A stretch of DNA of 64,000 bases from NCBI GenBank assembly GCA_023473665.1, contig JAMCYM010000002.1, positions 248,001 to 312,000 of the forward strand, read 5' to 3'. This stretch comes from Candidatus Marsarchaeota archaeon. GTDB taxonomy: Archaea > Micrarchaeota > Micrarchaeia > Micrarchaeales > Micrarchaeaceae. Below the pieces are notes generated by a model. It saw only the letters and a program-made list of their open reading frames with translations. It made no database searches and was not told the DNA's origin. Positions 11,949 through 28,126 of this stretch are shown here, piece by piece; position 1 is the stretch's first letter, and the number at the start of each line of letters is the position of its first letter. The position numbers and the translations under genes were made by a program.

Positions 11949-12533
11949 TCACTTAGTAAGAATATACTCTTTGAATTTAGACGCCGCTTTCATTCTGTGG
12001 CTGAACTTGATTCTCTCACCTACTGGAATTTCACATACAAATCTAGAATCACCATCCGGTATAAAGAGTTGGTTGAATGGAAAACCTGTCTCTCCCCCTC
12101 CATTATATTTTAATGAGAGTCTGCCATACGCCTCTCCAGTAAATGTTACCGGTACATCGGACGACTCGTCCATATACGAAAGGATCGTGAAGAAATGGGC
12201 TCTATCCCCCTCGTCTATAAGCCTCTTGATACCCTCGATACCAAGACCTTCAATTATCTGTTTGGTGTTTGTGCCGGGAAAATTGTTGTACCTGTCTATA
12301 TATATACCGGAATCATCAACAAGTATCGGTTTTTTTATCTGCCCAAATGCGTCCAACGCCTTCTGTTGTGAAACTTTCTGCAAATCATCTTGCTGTAATT
12401 CGTTAAATTTTATTGACAAAGGTTCTATTTCTATGCCGCTGCCTCCAAATGCTTCTCTGAACTCCTTCAGTTTGCCTTCGTTTGTTGTTGCAACAAATAT
12501 TTTTCTATTCACACTCTCACTCCTTTCTTGCAC
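11949..12533 (-). CDS. Divergent HAM1/RdgB-type nucleoside triphosphate pyrophosphatase
   Basis: 194 residues. The family frame is clear: N-terminal ATTNEGKLKEF, catalytic LVDDSGIY, a GGETGF glycine loop and the C-terminal FSHR. HAM1 proteins hydrolyse non-canonical (d)NTPs such as ITP/XTP to monophosphates. Here the usual base-pocket segment GFGYDPIF reads GFPFNQLF, so Asp is replaced by Asn and Pro by Gln, and the FPG segment continues TNTKQI instead of the usual VYSAR type. Altered base specificity is therefore plausible. It is third in an operon with the ThyA-like protein and the methyltransferase, overlapping the latter by 17 nt. A GTG at 12512 is an alternative start. Confidence 0.8.
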   Translation of the reverse strand: MQERSESVNRKIFVATTNEGKLKEFREAFGGSGIEIEPLSIKFNELQQDDLQKVSQQKALDAFGQIKKPILVDDSGIYIDRYNNFPGTNTKQIIEGLGIEGIKRLIDEGDRAHFFTILSYMDESSDVPVTFTGEAYGRLSLKYNGGGETGFPFNQLFIPDGDSRFVCEIPVGERIKFSHRMKAASKFKEYILTK

Positions 12534-13158
12534 ATACTCTTATAACCCGCGATCCTACCTTACCGTCAAAATTAATTCTATTAAACTTCTTCTCTTTCAA
12601 TAAGCAAGTTATCTCGCGTTTTGTAAATGCTTTCTTGTATGATTCTTGTGCTTTGAACTTCGCGGTCTTGGTGTTCGACAAAAAGTCGAATAGTATCGCG
12701 CCGCCAGGCTTTAACACCCTATTGATCTCGTTAAGCATCTGATTTATTTTGGCCTTTCGTGCTAACAATGATATAAGGATGCCTCTGCTTATGGCAATGT
12801 CAACACATTCACTCTCTATATGCATATCTGTAACTGAAGCGTACAATATTCTTGCCTTGGGATATTTCTTCTTTGCTATTTCTAGCATCTTATAAGAAAT
12901 ATCCAACAACATAAGATTTTTTACATGCTTTGCTAGTACTGCGCTCGCCTTGCCCGTTCCACATCCTATATCTATCCCAGAATCAACCTTTCCCATTTTG
13001 GAGATAATACCTGATGCAAACCTGTCAAATTTCTTATATCCATCCTCAAAATTAACATAATGGCCCGGATTTTCTATGTCGGAATCCCATCTATGCGCCA
13101 CACCGTTCCAGCCAATGGCTTTCTTTTTCCACTTAGACAGATTGCCAGAAAATTTCAT
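12517..13158 (-). CDS. Class I SAM-dependent methyltransferase
   Basis: 213 residues. Motif I is IDIGCGTGKASAVLAKH near residues 62-78, then an acidic motif II (LLDISYKMLEIAKK) and LNEINRVLKPGGAILFDF as the post-motif III block. This is a UbiE/COQ5-like small-molecule type of methyltransferase. It begins directly after the stop of the ThyA-like gene (TGA followed by ATG), so the two are translationally coupled. The substrate is unknown; given the operon, a nucleotide, nucleoside or sugar acceptor is possible. AT-rich codon use like its island neighbours. Confidence 0.85.
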   Translation of the reverse strand: MKFSGNLSKWKKKAIGWNGVAHRWDSDIENPGHYVNFEDGYKKFDRFASGIISKMGKVDSGIDIGCGTGKASAVLAKHVKNLMLLDISYKMLEIAKKKYPKARILYASVTDMHIESECVDIAISRGILISLLARKAKINQMLNEINRVLKPGGAILFDFLSNTKTAKFKAQESYKKAFTKREITCLLKEKKFNRINFDGKVGSRVIRVCARKE

Positions 13159-13788
13159 TCATCCATCCTCTGTGAATTCCATGAGTGGCCGTACTATGCT
13201 ATCAATATCTTTCTCGTATATATGTAGAGATGCAATAAAAATAGTCAGGGCACCAGCCTTGGAACCTGTTTCATTTGCAACTTTCTTGGTTAGTTCACCT
13301 AACGAGATCATATCTGCATATATCTTCTTGCCGGCATCCTGAGACCTGAAAAACGCAGCACATTGTACTCTTCCATCCCGTATCTTGAAGTCAAGTGTAC
13401 AGATGCATGGGACATGCTTCCCGTCCTTAGAAGGATCCATGAGGTTTATGGTCGCTGATTTCGACTCTCTGTTCCGTTTTAGCTTATCTATGATGTTCTT
13501 AAGCTGATTAGTCCCGTTATAATCAAGGATCCTTGCTCCGTATGAGTAACCCCAGTCAAGCACTGGCTCTTTTTCAAGGAAATTTCCTAACATGAAGTCC
13601 AGCATCTTTTTGTCAGCAAATTTATCAAGCACACGGTCGCTCTCTAAAGGATTTTCGCACACGAGCACTACATTTGTCAGCTCCTTCAAGCGATCCTGCC
13701 CATCCATTACGGCTGCACCATTTTTGTATACCACTGTCGCTGCTTCTTGCCATAGCTTACCTGGCGAATGTGCTTCTATAATTTTCAT
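13159..13788 (-). CDS. Thymidylate-synthase-family protein with Asp at the Asn177 position (possible dCMP/CMP (hydroxy)methylase)
   Basis: 209 residues. From the catalytic Cys onward it aligns without gaps to E. coli ThyA with a constant offset of 18: Cys128 (PC motif; Cys146), Arg148-Ser149 (166-167), Asp151 (169), His189 (207) and Tyr191 (209). The residue matching Asn177, which selects dUMP, is Asp159. T4 dCMP hydroxymethylase has Asp there, and Asn-to-Asp mutants of thymidylate synthase act on dCMP. The family transfers a one-carbon unit from methylene-folate to C5 of a pyrimidine nucleotide. The frame is open to 13824, but that segment contains the TATA box, so the ATG at 13788 is the start. 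First gene of a three-gene operon. Confidence 0.8.
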   Translation of the reverse strand: MKIIEAHSPGKLWQEAATVVYKNGAAVMDGQDRLKELTNVVLVCENPLESDRVLDKFADKKMLDFMLGNFLEKEPVLDWGYSYGARILDYNGTNQLKNIIDKLKRNRESKSATINLMDPSKDGKHVPCICTLDFKIRDGRVQCAAFFRSQDAGKKIYADMISLGELTKKVANETGSKAGALTIFIASLHIYEKDIDSIVRPLMEFTEDG

Positions 13789-13810
13789 ATTTCTCACCTT
13801 ACACGTCACT

Positions 13811-13820
13811 AAATATATAA
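13811..13820 (-). promoter_or_regulatory. TATA box of the ThyA-like operon
   Basis: Minus strand TTATATATTT, about 27 nt upstream of the ATG at 13788. It lies inside the longest possible frame and rules out the ATG at 13824. Confidence 0.55.
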
Positions 13821-14059
13821 ACATTATGTATTATAGACCTCGTTCAGCAAATGTGCGAAGAATGAATCAACTTTAGCCTGGCCTGTTTATAGTCGTCTTG
13901 TTGTCTATTCTCAACCTGCAAACAGCCATCATTTGAATCGTCAAAATTGTGATAGACAATTGCAGTTCAATACTGCAGGTAAAAGATAGAATAAATGAAT
14001 TAATGAACAAAGTCGATGGAACATAATAATTAAATATTAAAATGTGGCTATAGGAAAGC

Positions 14060-15031
14060 ATGCCAACATCCAAACCTTTGATGACTAAGACTGCAGAAAA
14101 AGTGAGGTTTAAGCCGTTCGGAATCGAGCTTAGGGTTAATGCGCCAGAGGATCTGCACAGTGAGCTGCTAGATAAAAGCGCAATATACCTCCCACTTGGT
14201 GTATCATATAATATTGCTACCACACAACAAATTGAGATTAATGTAGAGAGAGGCGCACCCAGGCTGGAAATTGAAAATTTTAAGGCTAATTTAACTTCAG
14301 ATTCAAAGAATAACTCTATTGTATCTGACACGCTGCTTATAGCATCAAGGCTGCTTGAAAAGGCACTAAACCAAAACGGCATATTCTCAATGCATGCTAG
14401 CGGAGTATCATACAACGGTAAAGCAGTCCTAATTCTGGGCCCGTATGGCTCAGGCAAGACTACAACAGCATTCAATGCGTGCATGAAAAATTATACGATT
14501 AGGTACGTAACTGGCAATCGGCCGTTTTTGAAAAACAGCACTAACGAGATTCTCTATGGTATGAATTCTCATGCATCATTGCAAAGAAGCTCTCTCGTAT
14601 CGGAACTGGGAATTCGTAGCGATGCTCTAGCAAGCATGCACATAAACAAAGGCGATGACCCCTCAGTGACTATACAATCGTCAAGAGTTGTAATCGACCC
14701 GTCAGCATTCGGCGTACAGATATCTAGCTTCCCGTTAGATCTGGAGGCGCTTGTCATGGTGAGGAAATCGCACAGGGACTTAGTTTCATATGAACCCGGC
14801 ACTATAAGCGAACGGGAAATAATGGCGATATACTATGCGCTGTGTGAGTATAGTGAGAGCATATATGTGATGTTTGGACCCCGGCTAATCTTCCCAAACA
14901 TACTAAGCGAAGAGGAGAAGCAGAAGCGGTTCGAGTACGCGGAACGCCTATCAAAGAGCACCCGAATCATTTACGCTGAAGGAAAGCTCAATGACTTGTC
15001 TGCATATATAACCAAGCTTCTGCGTAAATAA
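14060..15031 (+). CDS. HPr-kinase/PEPCK-like P-loop protein
   Basis: 323 residues. After a divergent N-terminal domain, HASGVSYNGKAVLILGPYGSGKTT (about residues 113-135, given here in two parts: HASGVSYNGKA and GPYGSGKTT) matches the HPr kinase family pattern of a conserved His, a beta-hairpin and a Walker A. Related HprK-like kinases occur in polysaccharide and peptide-modification clusters and in small-molecule phosphorylation. The classic HPr substrate is not evident here. An AT-rich TATA region (AATTAAATATTAAAATG, 14029-14045) precedes the ATG. Divergent from the ThyA-like operon and convergent with the HAD gene, with no spacing between the two stop codons. Confidence 0.7.
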   Translation: MPTSKPLMTKTAEKVRFKPFGIELRVNAPEDLHSELLDKSAIYLPLGVSYNIATTQQIEINVERGAPRLEIENFKANLTSDSKNNSIVSDTLLIASRLLEKALNQNGIFSMHASGVSYNGKAVLILGPYGSGKTTTAFNACMKNYTIRYVTGNRPFLKNSTNEILYGMNSHASLQRSSLVSELGIRSDALASMHINKGDDPSVTIQSSRVVIDPSAFGVQISSFPLDLEALVMVRKSHRDLVSYEPGTISEREIMAIYYALCEYSESIYVMFGPRLIFPNILSEEEKQKRFEYAERLSKSTRIIYAEGKLNDLSAYITKLLRK

Positions 15032-15724
15032 CTACAGATTCTTAAAGAATTTAGGCACTGCCAATGGGGCCAAATTAAGTATTCTTGATGGCACGTCTCT
15101 ATGTTCATTTGCCCGGTCGACTAGCACTGCCTTCATACCGCTGGCTATCGGCCCGCTGTAGTCATTCGTTGGATTGTCACCCACGAAAAGAATCTCATTC
15201 GGCTTGCAGCTGGCTTCATCTATGACACGTTTGTATGCGCGCAAATCTGGCTTTGGAGCATTCACAGTATCTTCGCCAAGCACAAATGAGAAGTATGTTT
15301 CTAAGCCAAGCTTCCTGAGCGTCTTTCTATAGCTTATGGCTGCACCTGCTGTTAACAGCCCAAGCTTATACTTGCGTCTTTTCAATGATTCAAGCACAAT
15401 TCTTGTCTCTGGGTAAGGTGTCCTATTTCCAGCATCTGTCCATTGAGAGTTTACTATTCTTGCGAGCATGGCTACCTCGTGGTCATCGAAATCCAAAAGT
15501 ATAAGCCTAATCTCGTTCTCCAGCAGATATCCTGCACTGTCAAGCTTTGTCAACCCCTTTGACTTAAGTAAGTTTGCGATCCTTTTTGCCTTCAAGAAAG
15601 CCCTATCTATCTCTGCGAGCCTCCTGCGATAGCCTTTCTCTTTGAGTATGTTCTGTATTTTCTTATTTTTTGGCAAACTGCTGAAAAGCGTGCCTTCCCC
15701 ATCAAACACTATAACTTTTATCAT
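15032..15724 (-). CDS. HAD-superfamily hydrolase (phosphatase)
   Basis: 230 residues. HAD motif I reads VIVFDGEGTLF (canonical DxDGT/L; here D-G-E-G, so the second Asp is replaced by Glu). Motif II is LGLLTAGAA, the motif III Lys is in NAPKPDLRAYK, and motif IV is FVGDNPTNDYSG. A helical cap lies between motifs I and II, as in phosphoglycolate phosphatase-like and 5'-nucleotidase-like members. The Glu at the general acid/base position is unusual and may alter activity. Downstream of the nucleotide-kinase-like gene in the same direction. Confidence 0.8.
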   Translation of the reverse strand: MIKVIVFDGEGTLFSSLPKNKKIQNILKEKGYRRRLAEIDRAFLKAKRIANLLKSKGLTKLDSAGYLLENEIRLILLDFDDHEVAMLARIVNSQWTDAGNRTPYPETRIVLESLKRRKYKLGLLTAGAAISYRKTLRKLGLETYFSFVLGEDTVNAPKPDLRAYKRVIDEASCKPNEILFVGDNPTNDYSGPIASGMKAVLVDRANEHRDVPSRILNLAPLAVPKFFKNL

Positions 15725-15756
15725 TGCAAATCATACTCTAAAACAATATAAAAATC

Positions 15757-16329
15757 TCACTCTTCTTTATTTAAACTTTTAAGGAATCTGGATATGAGTC
15801 TGCGCTGCACTGCAATAGAATTGCGCCCGTCTATAGTGAGTATATTCCTCTCTACTACACTGAAATAGAATCCATAGAACAGTTCCATAAGCCTCAGCTT
15901 CTTCTTGCTTGACCATACCTTATGGAATTGCTTCCTGCGCTTTCTGCTGATGCTAACAGAAACCGGTGTCTTTATGTAAACATAGCAGTCCGGCTTCCAA
16001 ATCTCTCCGCTGGCCATGCTTTTAAAGTACCAACTGACCACGCTGAAGAAGGTTGGATCAAGGCCCGCCAGTTTAGAGAAATTAAACGCCAAACTAGATA
16101 CATAATTCCTATCCATAATAGTTATTCCAGGTTTTGTTGCTAGGCTATATTTCTTAATTTCGTTCCTTAGGAAAAACATCTCGTTCGGTTTATTCGGTAC
16201 TTTTGATAAAATTTCCTTTACAGTGTTGTAGTGTTTTGAAAAATACATCAAATGCCCCGTCTTGCCGCTTCCAGGCAGACCTTCAAGTACTATCAACCAT
16301 CGCTTATTTGAAGAACCTGATCCTGCCAT
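15757..16329 (-). CDS. Thymidylate/deoxynucleoside-kinase-like P-loop kinase
   Basis: 190 residues. Walker A is EGLPGSGKT (residues 16-24), and the family DR motif is MDRNYVSSLAFN (Asp73-Arg74), as in dTMP kinases and deoxynucleoside kinases. A basic lid-like segment (SRKRRKQFHKVW) follows. It probably phosphorylates a nucleotide or nucleoside (dTMP, a modified dNMP) or, as in related kinases of glycan loci, another small molecule. A 46-residue ORF overlaps its start by 26 nt, suggesting coupling; the HAD gene follows after 32 nt. Together with the ThyA-like gene it suggests nucleotide supply for the island. Confidence 0.75.
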   Translation of the reverse strand: MAGSGSSNKRWLIVLEGLPGSGKTGHLMYFSKHYNTVKEILSKVPNKPNEMFFLRNEIKKYSLATKPGITIMDRNYVSSLAFNFSKLAGLDPTFFSVVSWYFKSMASGEIWKPDCYVYIKTPVSVSISRKRRKQFHKVWSSKKKLRLMELFYGFYFSVVERNILTIDGRNSIAVQRRLISRFLKSLNKEE

Positions 16330-16444
16330 TTTTCACTACCGCATATCTATACCTTTCCGGTATCTTATACTTGATGGTAAACCTTTTTTTTACAACCATC
16401 TCCCTAAGCCAAGTTGGTATTACGTACGCCTTTCTTTTTCTCAT
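16304..16444 (-). CDS. Small basic protein, 46 residues
   Basis: A frame with 16 Lys/Arg and only 2 Glu in 46 residues, starting MRKRKAYVIPTWLREM and ending GRIRFFK. It has a TATA box (16460-16474) at leaderless distance and overlaps the kinase start by 26 nt, so it looks like the first gene of the kinase-HAD operon. Its charge suggests nucleic acid or phospholipid-head-group binding. No family recognised. Confidence 0.55.
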   Translation of the reverse strand: MRKRKAYVIPTWLREMVVKKRFTIKYKIPERYRYAVVKNGRIRFFK

Positions 16445-16459
16445 GTTTGTTTATTTTTA

Positions 16460-16474
16460 CTTAATATTAAAATA
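16460..16474 (-). promoter_or_regulatory. TATA box of the 46-residue/kinase/HAD operon
   Basis: Minus strand TATTTTAATATTAAG, centred about 24 nt from the ATG at 16444, leaving no room for a long leader. Confidence 0.5.
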
Positions 16475-16508
16475 CTTGCCTGCACAATAAGGATTCGGTC
16501 TATATTGC

Positions 16509-17612
16509 ATGCACGTTGCTATATTTCGAGACGGGCCGTGGCTTCCGGCAAAGGAAGGGGGTTCGTTTGGCATAAATCAGATGATTCAGGCGTTGATGAA
16601 AAAACATATACGCGTAACTCTTGTGAGATGCTATCGTGGCTGGGATAACATCACACTATATAAAAAGGAGAAGTACACAAGCATACTGCTTCGCGAAGCC
16701 GATTTCTATGGACGATCTGAATTTATAACAGGGCTGCTTGCTAAGGCTCATGTAGATGCTGCTCACTTCGACTCACCAGAGATTCTCAATGTATATGCAG
16801 AAGCCCTCCATAATAGCCACATACCGATAGTTTGGGAGGTTCACAACATACATAGTGATCTTTTGCAACAACTGGGATATAACAGAAAGCGAATCTTGGC
16901 AATTGCTAATAGAGAACGGACAGCTGCCAATGCTTGCGATGCAGTACTGTGTAGGTCTAGTAGTGATGCAAATAAGCTTATCAATATATCTGGAATTTCC
17001 CGACATAAGGTGTTCATATACAATGGCTGCATTGATACGAAGCCATTGGAGAAACTGCGGCCTGCCCCTAGCAGCATGCGCATAGTAACGTTTGGGAACT
17101 TCTACTACGAGCCAAATAAAAGGATGTTGGTTAACTTGGTAAGCATAATGAGGGAAATGGAAAAAGTTGAGAAAGACATAATGCTAGATGTTATCGGTGA
17201 CATCCCTCCAGCGTTGCGTAGAAAAGTGGAATCGACTAATATAAAAGTTCATGGCTTTATTCCAGATCTTGCAAATGCAATCAGGCGCAATTCAATTCTT
17301 GTTGCCCCGATAGATAGCGGTTCAGGGACAAGAGTGAAACTGCTTGTTGCTATGGCATCTGGAATGCCGGTCATTACTACGACAAAAGGTGCTGAAGGTC
17401 TAGACCTTAGAGGTTCAGTGATAATATCTGACGATTTAACAGAATACCCTAAGCTTATCATGTATCTGTTGCACAATAAAAGACTTTATGCCTGCCTCAG
17501 TGCAAAAGGCAGGAAGCTCGTTCAGAAAGAATATGATTGGTTTGGTCAGATAGATCAGGTCATATCTGCTTATAGGTTTGTTGCGACTCCAAAACCTACA
17601 TCTGGTGCATAG
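16509..17612 (+). CDS. GT4-type glycosyltransferase (GT-B fold)
   Basis: 367 residues. The N-terminal domain has the glycine-rich loop KEGGSFGINQMIQAL. The C-terminal domain begins at MRIVTFGNFYYEPNKR near residue 195. The donor site carries APIDSGSGTRVKLLVAMASG, typical of GT4 enzymes in which the usual E-x7-E has diverged. Its role in the island could be glycosylation of a modified nucleotide or DNA base (T4 base glucosyltransferases are also GT-B) or of a surface glycan. Its 3' end overlaps that of the convergent phosphoribosyltransferase-like gene by 43 nt. Confidence 0.85.
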   Translation: MHVAIFRDGPWLPAKEGGSFGINQMIQALMKKHIRVTLVRCYRGWDNITLYKKEKYTSILLREADFYGRSEFITGLLAKAHVDAAHFDSPEILNVYAEALHNSHIPIVWEVHNIHSDLLQQLGYNRKRILAIANRERTAANACDAVLCRSSSDANKLINISGISRHKVFIYNGCIDTKPLEKLRPAPSSMRIVTFGNFYYEPNKRMLVNLVSIMREMEKVEKDIMLDVIGDIPPALRRKVESTNIKVHGFIPDLANAIRRNSILVAPIDSGSGTRVKLLVAMASGMPVITTTKGAEGLDLRGSVIISDDLTEYPKLIMYLLHNKRLYACLSAKGRKLVQKEYDWFGQIDQVISAYRFVATPKPTSGA

Positions 17613-18928
17613 TTAGCATCTATACCTCTTCTTCTGCTACCCAATACTCCTATTCCGCCCCTAGCATAAACCAATGATCCTATGTATGGTTCTGTCATGG
17701 CCCGCCTGAGATACAGCGCATCAGGCTCTTCCCATACAGCTTTCTTACTGCATGGTATTCCTGTTTCTTTATTTGTCTTGTACCATCCCGTTTCTGCCGG
17801 CCAATCAATAATTTTTACGATTCCTCCACGCACTACACCAGTGTGCTCATCAATAAAAGTCGTGTTGGCGTTCAGGACTATAGCAGTGTCATGCATGCCT
17901 TGAAGTTTGACAGGCACATTGAATGTAAGCCCTTTGAACGTCACGCGCTTATCAAATGGTTTGCCTGCGGCTTCTACTATAATGAATTCATTGACCCTGA
18001 AGCCAACGTGATCGTATGGTTCGTTAACGCCTAATGTCTTACGCATCGTATTTAAACCTGTAATTTTCCCCCTGAATCTGTTTATTGCTGCAAACAAATT
18101 CCAAGGCCCTGGTCTCAGTGCTAATTCTTTATTAGAACGGAAATTTGGCATAGGTTCAGCAATTCCTTTATCCACTCTTGTGATCTGCCTTTTCACTTTC
18201 TTTGCATTTGCACTCCATTTGTATAAGACCATTCCAGAGTTTAAATCATATGCTACCTCCTCAAAGTACTCAGCACCATTCGAATTTGCTGCTTCGGGTA
18301 GGCGCATACCGAACAAGAAGAATATGTCTCTTTTTCCGCTATCAGAAAACCTTGTTGCAATTTCTTTTGAAAAACTAAAAAATTCACAGGTGTCATCAAC
18401 AACAAGTAATGCTTTTCTGCTGTTATTCACTAGCTCGGTGTCTGCTTTGTCAGCGTAGAGGGTATGGGTTGGAAAAAGTACTTTACCATCTCGTGATTTA
18501 ACTGCTGCTTTATGAATCCCAAAAAGCACTAGGTCGAATGTCTTGCGCCTCGTCGTAAGTGCATAACCTACAAGCCTTCCCAATTCATAGCCCTTTATCA
18601 TTATTGGCATGAGCACTACATTGTCTGGTAGAATGTCAAGCATCTTTGGCCATGATTTTACTGCGCTTTCCACGAATATCACTGATGGATTTCTGACTCC
18701 ATAAAAAAAGTAATTCCTGAGAAGATCCCTCAGGAAGCCCTTGGCAGAATCATCCGCTTCAGGCTCAAACTGGTCGGTCCACGTTTTGGTACTGAATGTC
18801 GTAATTTTAGGAAAGGCAGAATTCCAATTTCCAAAAAAATGTGAGTATGCAGCAAGCTGCATAACATCCTTAGCTACGGCTTCACGCACAGAAACGCTTA
18901 CATTCTTCGCTGTGCCTTTCGGTACCAT
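17570..18928 (-). CDS. Large protein with a phosphoribosyltransferase-like segment
   Basis: 452 residues, unusual. Residues about 95-200 look like a type I phosphoribosyltransferase core: VVLMPIMIKGYELGRLVGYAL, then the acidic loop LLVVDDTCEFFS near 174-185 at the place of the PRPP-binding VVDD-TG-T loop. The Thr-Gly-Thr part is not conserved. The C-terminal 200 residues are of unknown fold and contain KIIDWPAETGWYK and a Gly/Arg-rich end (GVLGSRRRG). It may use PRPP or a phosphosugar, or bind such ligands without catalysis. The ATG follows the TATA element shared with the divergent guanylate-kinase-like gene. Confidence 0.55.
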   Translation of the reverse strand: MVPKGTAKNVSVSVREAVAKDVMQLAAYSHFFGNWNSAFPKITTFSTKTWTDQFEPEADDSAKGFLRDLLRNYFFYGVRNPSVIFVESAVKSWPKMLDILPDNVVLMPIMIKGYELGRLVGYALTTRRKTFDLVLFGIHKAAVKSRDGKVLFPTHTLYADKADTELVNNSRKALLVVDDTCEFFSFSKEIATRFSDSGKRDIFFLFGMRLPEAANSNGAEYFEEVAYDLNSGMVLYKWSANAKKVKRQITRVDKGIAEPMPNFRSNKELALRPGPWNLFAAINRFRGKITGLNTMRKTLGVNEPYDHVGFRVNEFIIVEAAGKPFDKRVTFKGLTFNVPVKLQGMHDTAIVLNANTTFIDEHTGVVRGGIVKIIDWPAETGWYKTNKETGIPCSKKAVWEEPDALYLRRAMTEPYIGSLVYARGGIGVLGSRRRGIDANYAPDVGFGVATNL

Positions 18929-18955
18929 TCAAGCACATTAAATCTGCCTTCCTCA

Positions 18956-18970
18956 AAATATATATAATTT
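18956..18970. promoter_or_regulatory. Shared bidirectional TATA element
   Basis: AAAATATATATAATT is nearly symmetrical. It lies about 27 nt from the plus-strand ATG at 18990 and about 35 nt from the minus-strand ATG at 18928, so one element may drive both leaderless genes. Confidence 0.45.
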
Positions 18971-18989
18971 CTTAATGCAATGCGTACAT

Positions 18990-19565
18990 ATGGTAAGCGT
19001 TAACCGTTTGATTATACTATTAACTGGTCCATCAGGCGTTGGGAAATCCACCGTGATTGAGCATCTACTCGGTATAGACTCTAGGCTTAGACGAATGACG
19101 GTATATACTACGAGGCAGAAACGAGATAACGATGATAAAAATCATATTTCGCTCATCCACCTAATGGTGCTCCAGCAAGCTGGGCAGGTGAAGATATTTC
19201 GACACTACGGCTCTGTTTATGGAGAACCAATAATGGAAGTGCTGAAAACTCAGCAAGCTGGGAAGGTACCAATAATGGATATAAGTGTCGAATTTGTCGA
19301 TGAGTGGCTTAGGTACGTGGGAGGGAAATCATTTGTTGTATACCTTTTTCCAGAAAGCATCCCAGAGTTAAAGAGGAGGCTGCAGGCGACTGGCAGGGAC
19401 ATCACTGGAAAACGTCTCGAATATACACGCCAAGAACTAAAGGCGGTCAGATCTGGAAAGTACAATTCATCAATAAACCGTTTCGTTACTAATAGATCAT
19501 CAATCTCCACCGCCAGAAGTCTTTTGCCTGAATTGCGTAAAGTAATTGATGGAAGCCTAAAATAG
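18990..19565 (+). CDS. Guanylate-kinase-like P-loop kinase
   Basis: 191 residues. Walker A is GPSGVGKST (residues 13-21), followed by the guanylate-kinase YTTR motif (39-42) with RQKRD after it. The usual GMP-binding glutamate/tyrosine stretch after the YTTR block is degenerate, and the C-terminal half is divergent. It may phosphorylate a nucleotide other than GMP, for example a modified or ribose-phosphorylated substrate. The ATG at 18990 is chosen over 18975 because of the TATA element at 18956. Its stop overlaps the possible GTG start of the LMW-PTP gene. Confidence 0.7.
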   Translation: MVSVNRLIILLTGPSGVGKSTVIEHLLGIDSRLRRMTVYTTRQKRDNDDKNHISLIHLMVLQQAGQVKIFRHYGSVYGEPIMEVLKTQQAGKVPIMDISVEFVDEWLRYVGGKSFVVYLFPESIPELKRRLQATGRDITGKRLEYTRQELKAVRSGKYNSSINRFVTNRSSISTARSLLPELRKVIDGSLK

Positions 19566-19573
19566 TGTGGCAA

Positions 19574-19987
19574 ATGAAAATTCTTTTCGTATGCAGAGCA
19601 AACATGGAAAGGAGCGTGGTAGCTGCAGTTATATTCAGCAAACTTTCCACCAAGAATACAGCAACAAGTTCAGGTTTTCATGTGAAAGCGGAAAACGGCG
19701 TAGGGAAAGGACCGAGCGAGATAACCTCTCCACTACTAAACAAAGCAGGCTACGATGCTTCTAACCATCATCGAATACAGTTGACAAAACGAATGTTTGA
19801 TGATGCCGACATTGTAATATTTATTGTAAATCGCATGGAGAAACGTATGCTTCCAAGTTACTGCAAATCCTCAAAAAAGACTATATTTTGGGATATTAAT
19901 GCAAGTATACACACCGCAGAGCACCATGCTGCTAGACTACGTATAATCGAGCATCTCGTTATGGAGCTAGTAATCGAAACGGGCTAA
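19574..19987 (+). CDS. Low-molecular-weight protein-tyrosine-phosphatase family protein
   Basis: 137 residues. The N-terminal P loop ILFVCRANMERS contains the C-x5-R signature (Cys7, Arg13), and the next strand carries a SGFHV segment as in the family's conserved SAG/SSG region. The general-acid loop near residue 109 reads FWDINAS, a divergent form of the usual DP loop. LMW-PTP members dephosphorylate phosphotyrosine or small phospho-compounds or reduce arsenate. It overlaps or directly follows the guanylate-kinase-like gene, pairing a kinase with a phosphatase. The ATG at 19574 is preferred to the GTG at 19565. Confidence 0.8.
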   Translation: MKILFVCRANMERSVVAAVIFSKLSTKNTATSSGFHVKAENGVGKGPSEITSPLLNKAGYDASNHHRIQLTKRMFDDADIVIFIVNRMEKRMLPSYCKSSKKTIFWDINASIHTAEHHAARLRIIEHLVMELVIETG

Positions 19988-24997: not shown

Positions 24998-25123
24998 ATG
25001 ACAACCGGGCAAGAAACCACAAAGAGAGGTCTGTTATGGACCGAAGACAAGGTGCAATCCGTGCGCAAAGTGTACGATTTCTTGGTAAAGAACAAAGAAT
25101 ACAGTTTCATGGTGCATGGGTGA
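24998..25123 (+). CDS. Small ORF, 41 residues, upstream of the 140-residue gene
   Basis: MTTGQETTKRGLLWTEDK at the N-terminus, then an amphipathic helix (SVRKVYDFLVKNKEY). TATA-like AAATAAGTATAAATATTTG (24953-24971) precedes it. Its TGA is 4 nt before the ATG of the next gene in another frame (TGAATGAATG), as in translational coupling. No family recognised; it could be a leader peptide or a small protein. Confidence 0.45.
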   Translation: MTTGQETTKRGLLWTEDKVQSVRKVYDFLVKNKEYSFMVHG

Positions 25124-25127
25124 ATGA

Positions 25128-25550
25128 ATGTCGAAACCTATTAATATGGATCAAAAAGGTAGGCAGCAGATCAGCGATTTTAGGAGCATGCGAGGCATTG
25201 ACGCTCTGAAGCCAGAGACCGCTCCAGAAAGGAACAAACTGATTGTAGAAAGGGACGAATCGCTGGTAGCCGCATTTGCTAAATACTCAGTCTACAAGAA
25301 GAAGGGCCTAGATGCTGAAGCTGAAAAGCTTAGGGAAAGGTACCAGCTAAACGACTTCATACTATACCAGCTGACCGGAACTGGCAGGAGCAGCATATAT
25401 GACAAGAATGTCCCGATAGCGGATCTTGCAGGTGAGGTCAAGCGCCTGGAAGTGATGCTGAGGGAGGACGACATACTCCACGTGAAGGTATTCCTCGATG
25501 AAGCCATAGACCAGTTCTGGCGCTACCTGGCAATTGAGCGCAAAGGCTGA
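25128..25550 (+). CDS. Hypothetical protein, 140 residues
   Basis: Soluble and charged. It has a helical central part (SLVAAFAKYSVYKKKGLDAEAEKLRER, within residues 45-75) and a C-terminal helix pair ending FWRYLAIERKG. The first helical pair has TPR-like spacing, but no full repeat is present. Probably translated from the same transcript as the 41-residue ORF. A short GACCG-AAA-CGGTC stem follows the stop codon. Confidence 0.6.
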   Translation: MSKPINMDQKGRQQISDFRSMRGIDALKPETAPERNKLIVERDESLVAAFAKYSVYKKKGLDAEAEKLRERYQLNDFILYQLTGTGRSSIYDKNVPIADLAGEVKRLEVMLREDDILHVKVFLDEAIDQFWRYLAIERKG

Positions 25551-25586
25551 AGACCGAAACGGTCCTTATGGCAGGAGTCTATGACA

Positions 25587-25617
25587 GCCTATCGTAGATT
25601 ACGGCCTGTCGATAGGC
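25587..25617. repeat. Perfect 8-nt inverted repeat
   Basis: GCCTATCG (25587-25594) and CGATAGGC (25610-25617) with a 15-nt loop, in the intergenic region between two hypothetical genes. It could be an operator for the gene at 25689 or a 3'-end structure. Confidence 0.4.
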
Positions 25618-25688
25618 ATCCCGAAGGAGCAGCTCGATTTTCCGATAGAATAGGAAACATTTTAGAATTTCTATGAAGGTGTTGGAAC

Positions 25689-26336
25689 ATGCACCTAGAA
25701 TTTATTATTGATAAAGAGTATGACGCCAAGATATCTCTTATGCGCCGCACAGCAAAAAGTAGAGAACAAGTAGAAGAACGATATAAATCCGATATGGGTC
25801 TGATGCTCGTCAAAAAAGACGAATATCAGAAATCATGGGATCAAATCAATGACGACTTTTCGGACTACGTAGAACGCATGACAGGGTACAAATGGCTTCA
25901 TCCTGAGTATGAATGCGTACTATCCTGCTTTAATAGAGGAATATCTAATTGGGGGATGGATAATAGGATAGTCAGGAGCTGGACTGAGGATCAATTTAAG
26001 ATGCGTAGGATAACCGCGCACGAGCTAATACTTATGCATTACTTTGAAATTTACAAGGAAAATTATGTGCACGAGGGACTGACAGAAGGGCAGGTTTGGG
26101 CGCTTGCAGAAATTGCCGCATTCGCTCTCACCTCACTAACGAAAGAGGCTGAATTATTCTGGCCAGGTGATACAGAATACCATACGGACCACAATTATCC
26201 GCATATTGTGGAGCTGCAGAACGAATTGAAACAGGTTTTCTTGGACAGCATCAAGAAAAGCGATTTTGACCATTATATGAAAGTTGGGATTAATCTGGTG
26301 AAGAAATACCCAAACATGAATCCAAAGGGCAAATGA
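25689..26336 (+). CDS. Hypothetical protein with an HE-x5-H-like motif
   Basis: 215 residues, soluble. The centre reads ITAHELILMHYFEIY (near residues 117-131), an HE-x4-H arrangement that is not the zincin HExxH, followed by a helical segment WALAEIAAFALTSLTKEAEL and HTDHNYPH near 175. Clustered His/Glu/Asp suggest metal binding. No family recognised. AT-richer than its neighbours. A strong 11-bp hairpin follows 14 nt after the stop. Confidence 0.6.
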   Translation: MHLEFIIDKEYDAKISLMRRTAKSREQVEERYKSDMGLMLVKKDEYQKSWDQINDDFSDYVERMTGYKWLHPEYECVLSCFNRGISNWGMDNRIVRSWTEDQFKMRRITAHELILMHYFEIYKENYVHEGLTEGQVWALAEIAAFALTSLTKEAELFWPGDTEYHTDHNYPHIVELQNELKQVFLDSIKKSDFDHYMKVGINLVKKYPNMNPKGK

Positions 26337-26350
26337 CAGCTTTAGAAGGG

Positions 26351-26376
26351 TACAATTTCATAGAAATGAAATTGTA
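26351..26376. repeat. Perfect 11-bp hairpin after the hypothetical gene
   Basis: TACAATTTCAT (26351-26361), loop AGAA, ATGAAATTGTA (26366-26376). It follows the stop codon at 26336. Archaeal termination does not normally use hairpins, so this may be an RNA processing or stability element or the edge of an inserted segment. Confidence 0.6.
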
Positions 26377-26847
26377 AACGCCATCTGTGCTGTCTGATTA
26401 TTTTTCATATTTCCGAAACGAAAACACGTTTTGTTTTAAGCATCTCTTTTGAATTTTTGGAAAACAGGGCCTGTTGGTTAAGCAAGCGGTATTGAGCGCG
26501 AAGTCGGCCTGTTTTTCATGCCTTTCCGAGAGAGGGCGTTTTTTGGCTCGCAATTATGAAACTTAATAGGCATAAATCCATATTCTTGAAAATCAATTTC
26601 TGAAGGGCTGAAAACCCTCGAAAACAAATTTTCGAGAGAAAAATTTACACGCATTTGCGTTCTGCTGCACGAAAAATTTTCTTTCGGGATTTTATTCACG
26701 CCATAGCGCAATGCAATAGGCAGCAAATAAAGAAGAAATCGAGTTTTGCTAAAAGAATCAAAGAAAAACTAAGTATATTCTATATTGTTCTAAAATAACG
26801 CATGCCATCAGTTATGCAGCTGAGCTCAGAAACCTTTTCTTTGAATT
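26377..26847. other. AT-rich non-coding region with several inverted repeats
   Basis: I see no credible gene. Structured elements are: AAAACAGGGCC with GGCCTGTTTT, around 26462-26517; CTCGAAAA with TTTTCGAG, around 26618-26637; ACGCA-TT-TGCGT near 26650; and CGAAA with TTTCG near 26670-26686. A minus-strand 82-codon frame here reads as low-complexity shadow. Candidate structured RNA, or a regulatory/replication region; no ORB-type repeats or cdc6 gene seen. Confidence 0.4.
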
Positions 26848-27588
26848 TCATTGACCATTAGGCTCTTGCTCTGCTGCAGCTTGCGCGACGCCTTCCGCAG
26901 CCCTCTTGTTCTGATTTGCATCATGAATATGTGATGCTATAATACCCCCTATAAACCCGCCGGTCAGTAGAATGTTTAATGCCAGCGAAGCATAGGGCAT
27001 GGCGTGTGGCGACATAGTGTAATCATAGGCACTTTCTATAACAATTATTGTGCTGGTGCTAAGAGCGAGCATGTATGCGGCTATCGTGTCCTTTCTTGCC
27101 TCCTTGTTTAGGATTAATATCTTAGTATCTAGAGATATCTCATTAGCTGCCTCAATTGTGCTGGATGGCACATAGCGCATAAACGCCCTATATGCAGCTT
27201 GCCCGGCATCGCTAAGATGATAATATTCGTGTCCGCCAAGCTGCAGAACAGTGAGAAGGCCATCAGCCTTGAGCGTTTCTATCCTCCTGTTTGCCGTACC
27301 TGTAGTGAGGGTCTCGTATTGATTGCTCTTGCTTGTCCACGCATCATTGATCCTAGCCAATTCCAAGAGCGTACCAGGATCAGACTTATGCGTTCCCTTA
27401 ACATACTTCTTGGCAGCCCTCAGCTCAGTATAGCTCTCTTTTCTCAGAAACCTTACGAATTGCCTAGTATTGCCATGCTTGATGGCTTCTTGTTCTTGCA
27501 GCTTATAAATATTTGCCTTCTTCATGGCGATGATAAAGGCCCTCCCATAATCTGATGCTTGGTTATTCGTGTGCAAGCTCGTATTCAT
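26848..27588 (-). CDS. Winged-helix protein with C-terminal membrane hairpin
   Basis: 246 residues. The N-terminal half is helical with a wHTH-like segment (TLTTGTANRRIETLKADGLL, then a beta-wing LQLGGHEYYHLSDAGQAAYR), typical of MarR/PadR-like regulators. Two hydrophobic helices follow (about residues 168-184 and 200-222), then a polar alanine/glutamate-rich tail. It may be a membrane-tethered DNA-binding regulator. The TATA element (GGTATAAATATC, 27618-27629) suits a leaderless start at 27588. Confidence 0.65.
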   Translation of the reverse strand: MNTSLHTNNQASDYGRAFIIAMKKANIYKLQEQEAIKHGNTRQFVRFLRKESYTELRAAKKYVKGTHKSDPGTLLELARINDAWTSKSNQYETLTTGTANRRIETLKADGLLTVLQLGGHEYYHLSDAGQAAYRAFMRYVPSSTIEAANEISLDTKILILNKEARKDTIAAYMLALSTSTIIVIESAYDYTMSPHAMPYASLALNILLTGGFIGGIIASHIHDANQNKRAAEGVAQAAAEQEPNGQ

Positions 27589-27718
27589 GTCACCACATTA
27601 AGGTTTTCTCGTTCGAGATATTTATACCTGCCTAAAGAGGTTTCACCTAAAAGAAATTAGAAATACTAAATTACTGTTAGTATCACTAAAGCCGTATGTG
27701 GGCGGGTCAGAATCGCCA

Positions 27719-28126
27719 TCAGTCTTTCCGGCCAGTCAAGCCTTCCCTGATCTTTTTCTTAGTATCATTATTCTGGTCCCTTGCTTCCTTAGCATTTTCA
27801 GGTTCTCCGGCAACGTCATAGAGCTTTGCAGCCGCTTCATAAAGATAAAGGCTTCTTACCTTTTCTCCGTATTTGTACTCCAAGACTGCGGCCTCCTTCA
27901 CGTTCGCCGCGGCTTCGTGGCATGCCCGCCTATAATCCGACGTAGATTGGTCCAGCACCACTGATGCCAATGTCGGTATTATCTTATCCACCGCGCTTCC
28001 AAGCCACCCATCTGCCTCTCTGCTGTATCTGTGCTGGGCAACAACCTTGAATGCCTCCACAAGGTTATTCTTCTCGTCCCTCGTCAAAAGCTTGCCGCTC
28101 TTGGCAGACTGCAACATATCTACCAT
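27719..28126 (-). CDS. Hypothetical helical protein (TPR-like C-terminus)
   Basis: 135 residues, all-helical in appearance. SLYLYEAAAKLYDVAGEPENA near residues 95-115 has TPR-type helix packing (A-x-x-Y, small residue, turn with GEPENA). TATA (TGTAAATATC, 28152-28161) places the start at the ATG at 28126 rather than 28141. Function unknown. The helical-repeat character is shared with the 781-residue protein nearby. Confidence 0.6.
   Translation of the reverse strand: MVDMLQSAKSGKLLTRDEKNNLVEAFKVVAQHRYSREADGWLGSAVDKIIPTLASVVLDQSTSDYRRACHEAAANVKEAAVLEYKYGEKVRSLYLYEAAAKLYDVAGEPENAKEARDQNNDTKKKIREGLTGRKD

Follow-up and report, generated by a model that had tools for sequence, protein, structure and literature searches.

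A 64-kb window of Candidatus Marsarchaeota archaeon DNA (64,000 nucleotides of contig JAMCYM010000002.1, part of a 779-kb genome in three contigs that is 95.9% complete and whose size and relatives point to a DPANN-type archaeon) carries, at positions 11949-19987, an island of ten genes that looks to have been acquired by horizontal transfer. On balance, and with modest confidence, we read this island as a pathway that modifies the C5 position of cytidine or deoxycytidine monophosphate, (d)CMP, organized around three minus-strand genes for a ThyA-family protein, an S-adenosylmethionine (SAM) methyltransferase and a HAM1-type nucleoside triphosphate pyrophosphatase. The three genes abut or overlap one another (Table 1), and this spacing makes a single operon very likely. 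The reading is carried by the ThyA-like protein, whose active site is built for cytosine nucleotides, so that a modified cytosine building block is the probable product. ThyA-family enzymes are known to produce C5-modified cytosine nucleotides in phages and in a few organisms that make antibiotics. If the reading holds, these archaea would join that list, with a cytosine-type ThyA encoded in a tiny genome that also bears a ThyX-like gene; this would hint that the Asn-to-Asp switch involved arose a second time, and would provide a directly testable enzyme.

Active site, fold and ancestry of the ThyA-like protein

Thymidylate synthases have an asparagine at the position of Escherichia coli Asn177. 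The island protein has Asp171 there, a residue that aligns without gaps to Asp186 of the CMP 5-hydroxymethylase MilA and to the aspartate of known dCMP hydroxymethylases, which bears out the dCMP-type site proposed in an initial annotation of this DNA. An aspartate at this base-reading position selects cytosine both in the phage T4 enzyme (Asp179; PMC6400193) and in MilA (PMC5175136), and phage contigs show the same contrast, Asn177 versus Asp, between unmodified and modified (PMC8670742). In our alignments, annotated dCMP enzymes and MilA carry Asp, whereas the deoxyuridine monophosphate (dUMP) hydroxymethylase of phage SPO1 and ordinary synthases carry Asn; the viral relatives retrieved with the motif S[LM]H[IL]YE all have Asp. 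Within the phylum, Asn occurs in every relative whose site can be read, save two class-level relatives (genomes G103 and G085). Cys140, Glu61, Arg160, His201 and Tyr203 are also retained. The real start of the protein is probably Met13, at position 13788.

Two further positions bear on which sugar is accepted. Where MilA has Ala176, the island protein has a residue of the deoxy type, Ser161, and its Lys122 corresponds to MilA Lys133. The MilA single mutant A176S, which has the same Ser/Lys combination, prefers dCMP and still accepts CMP (PMC5175136); dCMP would thus be favored by the island protein, with CMP possible. From these residues, the protein likely acts on (d)CMP.

Phage T4 gp42 and its phage relatives share with the island protein the thymidylate synthase fold, the nucleophilic cysteine (Cys148; Cys140 in the island protein), the catalytic glutamate (Glu60; Glu61), the aspartate for cytosine and a Ser169-type serine, and in several phages kinases lie nearby, as they do here; they differ in their paired phosphate-site arginines (Arg123 and Arg124, replaced by Lys122 and Ser123), in sequence (22-33% identity), in tree lineage, which is archaeal-type for the island protein, and in their setting, since no phage genes surround the island. 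MilA and BcmA, the CMP 5-hydroxymethylases of mildiomycin and bacimethrin synthesis, combine Asp186, Ala176 and Lys133 equivalents; the island protein has the Asp and the Lys with Ser in place of Ala, and lacks the large C-terminal region. The archaeal thymidylate synthase profile TIGR03283 is the best NCBIfam match and covers nearly the full length (residues 2-200 of 201), but its score of 117.7 bits falls short of the 174.55 set as cut-off.

Structure prediction, suggested as a check by the initial annotation, returned the family fold. An AlphaFold model built from an 11-sequence alignment has a predicted local distance difference test score (pLDDT) of 83.9 and a predicted TM-score (pTM) of 0.83, and a Foldseek search of the PDB, ranked by E-value, places phage AfhB first and MilA next (best TM-score, 0.81; root-mean-square deviation 2.5), with thymidylate synthases after them. 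MilA is also the best PDB match by sequence, and the best matches by sequence and by fold are cytosine-type enzymes (MilA, AfhB and phage dCMP/dUMP hydroxymethylases). Because the whole family has the same fold, the match supports cytosine specificity without proving it. AfhB is a dCMP 5-hydroxylase of ThyA fold, flavin-dependent according to its PDB entry, and has a similar size and an Asp at the same place; identity over the fold is, however, 22%, and flavin use by the island protein cannot be judged from its sequence.

In a 19-protein tree, the ThyA-like protein sides with Asn-type proteins of archaea and with a Methanobacteriales virus (split support 98/93), apart from the phage and bacterial Asp-types, and a topology that unites every Asp-type in one clade is rejected, though weakly (p-AU 0.0375). 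Its placement with archaeal synthases makes the Asn-to-Asp switch look independently acquired. A larger tree leaves the placement unsettled, and the branch is long, such that an independent switch is likely but not certain.

Island borders and a probable separate route to thymidylate

The initial annotation had described an island of different base composition and had suggested transfer, and both points stand. The ten open reading frames (ORFs) fill the whole interval, and G+C falls from about 0.49-0.53 in the left flank to 0.40-0.43 within it. Third-position G+C (GC3) is 0.38-0.47 in all ten island genes, compared with 0.60-0.71 in seven genes outside, namely the bracketing prolyl-tRNA synthetase (ProRS; left, 0.675) and radical-SAM (right, 0.651) genes and five others in the window. 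This step at ProRS and the radical-SAM gene means that the borders are sharp and lie where they had been placed. A genome of the same genus (G001) has both the block that lies upstream (window 3.4-9.1 kb) and ProRS, the latter inverted and with 68% identity; beyond ProRS that genome has different genes and no island, the sole island-type match found being a 39% homologue of the low-molecular-weight phosphotyrosine phosphatase (LMW-PTP) about 12 kb off. The GC3 contrast and the absence from G001 together mark the island as genome-specific and compositionally foreign.

Two other identities for the island were considered and rejected. As a provirus, it would be one in which none of the ten proteins matches a hallmark PHROG, with no border tRNA and no convincing terminal repeats. 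As a defense system, it yields PADLOC matches that are generic; HAM1 resembles KomB (E 8e-20) but keeps its catalytic residues, and the island has no recognized Kom partner.

By the terms of the initial annotation, its proposal would be refuted if this were the genome's only thymidylate synthase and acted on dUMP; the proposal survived that test. The genome holds no other ThyA, but it does hold a 638-residue ORF in which two divergent ThyX-like domains stand in tandem, directly followed by a separate thymidylate kinase (TMPK) gene (G000:C3:30187-32936; kinase at G000:C3:32079-32936). The tandem protein is thus far a putative thymidylate synthase. In a set of 60 relatives, those that carry a canonical 300-residue ThyA have no ThyX match and vice versa, a pattern that fits either one acting as the synthase. 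With this ORF and a housekeeping TMPK elsewhere in the genome, another source of thymidine monophosphate (dTMP) is likely; the island protein is not the only candidate for a thymidylate synthase, and it probably acts outside the dTMP pathway. Its Asp, together with the genome's ThyX-like candidate and own TMPK, sets the island protein apart from the TIGR03283 synthases. Similar tandem ThyX-like ORFs are common in relatives. In six relatives (L013-L018), Asn-type ThyA domains lie within frames of 475-614 residues, with long extra regions on either side.

Related loci, candidate pathway and alternatives

Profile searching of the phylum recovered two distant Asp-type homologues, neither of them close to the island protein (22-28% identity). 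In G103 (L152:833-3597; G103:C52), a class I methyltransferase gene overlaps the downstream side of a ThyA gene whose product has Asp, Ser and Lys, repeating the order seen in the island; a 358-residue protein without known family follows. In G085 (L153:8914-10264; G085:C8), the ThyA has the complete MilA/BcmA signature of Asp, Ala and Lys (MilA E 6.6e-35), and the best PDB matches of its 152-residue neighbor, individually weak, are BlsM, MilB and other CMP/hydroxymethyl-CMP N-glycosidases. This neighbor is probably a MilB-type glycosidase, and the locus may represent a MilA-MilB pair within the phylum. The G103 methyltransferase and the probable G085 glycosidase suggest that such pathways are commoner in the phylum than the label 'thymidylate synthase' reveals.

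Viral Asp-type ThyA genes also have kinase neighbors: one of TMPK-like type is directly adjacent in loci L052, L106 and L109 and in Gordonia phage Sixama, and in an IMG/VR contig (L107:3503-4819) one ORF encodes both a thymidylate-kinase-like domain and an Asp-type ThyA domain as a fusion. The island's own TMPK-like protein has no phage match. In Anaerolineales UBA2395 (L114:5571-12655), a type III restriction-modification locus is followed by an Asp-type ThyA, a 265-residue protein and an aGPT-Pplase3/ADDT (amino acid:DNA transferase) gene, an arrangement suggestive of a system for hypermodifying chromosomal DNA. The neighbor conservation raised in the initial annotation is thus partial: pairings recur in G103, G085 and the five viral loci, and the whole set cannot be shown conserved because orthologues of the ThyA-like and TMPK-like proteins were not found in the phylum. 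Single-protein scans of the genome and viral collections with these two proteins and the 452-residue island protein gave no orthologue and, from one scan, two distant viral relatives.

In the pathway that we favor, HAM1 would release (d)CMP from the cytidine or deoxycytidine triphosphate, (d)CTP, and the ThyA-like protein, as predicted from its residues, would attach a one-carbon unit, either hydroxymethyl or methyl, at C5; methyl, hydroxymethyl and hydroxyl products cannot be told apart by the present analysis. The SAM methyltransferase, given its position in the operon and the G103 arrangement, would decorate the C5-modified product. The TMPK-like and guanylate-kinase-like kinases could then phosphorylate it toward the triphosphate pool, or the HAD phosphatase could dephosphorylate the nucleotide to a nucleoside. 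Either a DNA base or a small molecule is possible as the end use. A more specific proposal, that an archaeal-type synthase switched to cytosine independently of phages and, with a dedicated methyltransferase, gave rise to a novel pathway leading to either a DNA base or an antimetabolite, is tentative and distinctly less probable than the pathway itself.

Several observations weigh against the proposed pathway. The phosphate-site arginines are missing (besides the Lys122 and Ser123 replacements, an R21 equivalent is absent), and therefore another substrate is possible, although archaeal-type relatives vary there too and the loss could be a feature of the lineage. In the phylum scans, no relative yielded orthologues for the complete set; HAM1 is a common house-cleaning enzyme, found in 169 of 245 phylum genomes; the methyltransferases belong to a generic family; and the glycosyltransferase, HprK-like, LMW-PTP and 452-residue proteins have no demonstrated link to the pathway. 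Most of these points, with the long branch of the ThyA-like protein, are also what favor the plainest account, in which a spare or decayed thymidylate synthase was acquired next to a cluster of glycan and house-cleaning genes unrelated to it and no common pathway exists. That account, doubtful in our view though the most probable of the alternatives, sits poorly with the full-length intact frame, the kept catalytic residues, the one specific change at the specificity position, the tight operon and the separate ThyX-like/TMPK pair.

The other two alternatives are possible end uses of the favored pathway, and our confidence in them therefore overlaps with our confidence in it. A small-molecule route, in which hydroxymethyl-CMP is methylated and dephosphorylated to yield a pyrimidine antimetabolite or an unusual nucleotide, as for bacimethrin or mildiomycin, is a serious rival that we nonetheless consider somewhat unlikely. 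The Paenibacillus bacimethrin operon encodes a glycosidase, a thymidylate synthase homologue, a methyltransferase, a Nudix hydrolase, thiaminase I, a HAD hydrolase and a kinase (PMC5627462), and with its synthase homologue adjoining a SAM methyltransferase, plus a phosphohydrolase, HAD hydrolase and kinase, it resembles the island trio with its HAD phosphatase and kinases more closely than any other known gene set does. The MilA-type lysine and the G085 and G103 loci argue in the same direction. The island protein nevertheless has Ser161 rather than the Ala of MilA/BcmA and is distant from both phylum homologues; HAM1 stands in place of the Nudix enzyme; neither a MilB/BcmB-type CMP N-glycosidase (by phmmer and motif) nor a thiamine pyrophosphate (TPP) riboswitch was found in the 64-kb window, and the ten island proteins show no thiaminase profile. 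The initial annotation had drawn a parallel with T4; on a T4-like reading, 5-hydroxymethyl- or 5-methyl-dCTP would enter DNA, perhaps to be glycosylated by the GT-B enzyme, and protect chromosomal or mobile DNA. The cytosine-type site and the transfer that the annotation invoked hold up; DNA modification is a possible use of the product, and the least probable of those considered. Ser161 favors a deoxy substrate, phage Asp-type ThyA genes adjoin TMPK-like kinases, and the Anaerolineales gene adjoins a restriction locus and an amino acid:DNA transferase gene; but the island has no viral hallmark, polymerase or DNA-replication gene, and where T4 uses a dedicated dCTPase and DNA-base glucosyltransferases, the island has a HAM1 and a GT-B enzyme of other families, the latter matching ordinary GT4 glycan enzymes.

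Gene content of the island

Pfam and NCBIfam profiles were used to assign the island proteins to families (Table 1). They agree with the earlier calls of a ThyA-family protein, SAM methyltransferase, HAD phosphatase, TMPK-like and guanylate-kinase-like enzymes, GT-B glycosyltransferase and LMW-PTP.

Table 1. Genes of the island, with window positions and profile matches.
Gene product	Positions	Strand	Assignment
HAM1/RdgB-type nucleoside triphosphate pyrophosphatase	11949..12533	-	Operon gene 3; Pfam PF01725 E 1.6e-30
Class I SAM methyltransferase	12517..13158	-	Operon gene 2, overlaps HAM1 gene; Pfam Methyltransf_11 E 6e-19
Archaeal-type ThyA homologue, cytosine-type site (Asp171)	13159..13824	-	Operon gene 1; ThyA profile E 2.6e-16
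P-loop protein, weak likeness to HprK-related kinases	14060..15031	+	NCBIfam TIGR04355 E 0.0017, far under cut-off
HAD-family phosphatase	15032..15724	-	PF13419 E 4.7e-22
TMPK/deoxynucleoside-kinase-like P-loop kinase	15757..16329	-	PF02223 E 1.8e-8; additional to housekeeping TMPK
GT4-type GT-B glycosyltransferase	16509..17612	+	PF13692 E 1e-15; TIGR03087 match in C-terminal part
452-residue protein, no family above cut-off	17570..18928	-	Relatives for C-terminal 150 residues only
Guanylate-kinase-like P-loop kinase	18975..19565	+	PF00625 E 1.8e-9
LMW-PTP family protein, final island gene	19565..19987	+	PF01451 E 1.4e-9

The HAM1 family assignment is firm, and the altered base pocket ascribed to it is real but modest: alignment with MJ0226/PH1917 and phylum relatives shows GFPFNQLF where relatives mostly have a GFGYD-type sequence, and the catalytic VDDSG is intact. 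The likeness of the P-loop protein to HPr kinase is weak. The phosphoribosyltransferase suggested for the 452-residue protein is not supported, since no family profile matches above cut-off, and an AlphaFold model of that protein (pLDDT 35) is of no use for judging the idea. In the guanylate-kinase-like protein, our own reading of the alignment is that the residues recognizing the GMP base look changed. The last 150 residues of the 452-residue protein (window 18480-17570) match phylum proteins of about 270 residues, of which a genome has several copies, with many candidates in one genome (G113). Outside the island, a second AT-rich stretch at window positions 25000-28000 (40-46% G+C) holds small ORFs, at least one of which is homologous to a gene beyond ProRS in G001.

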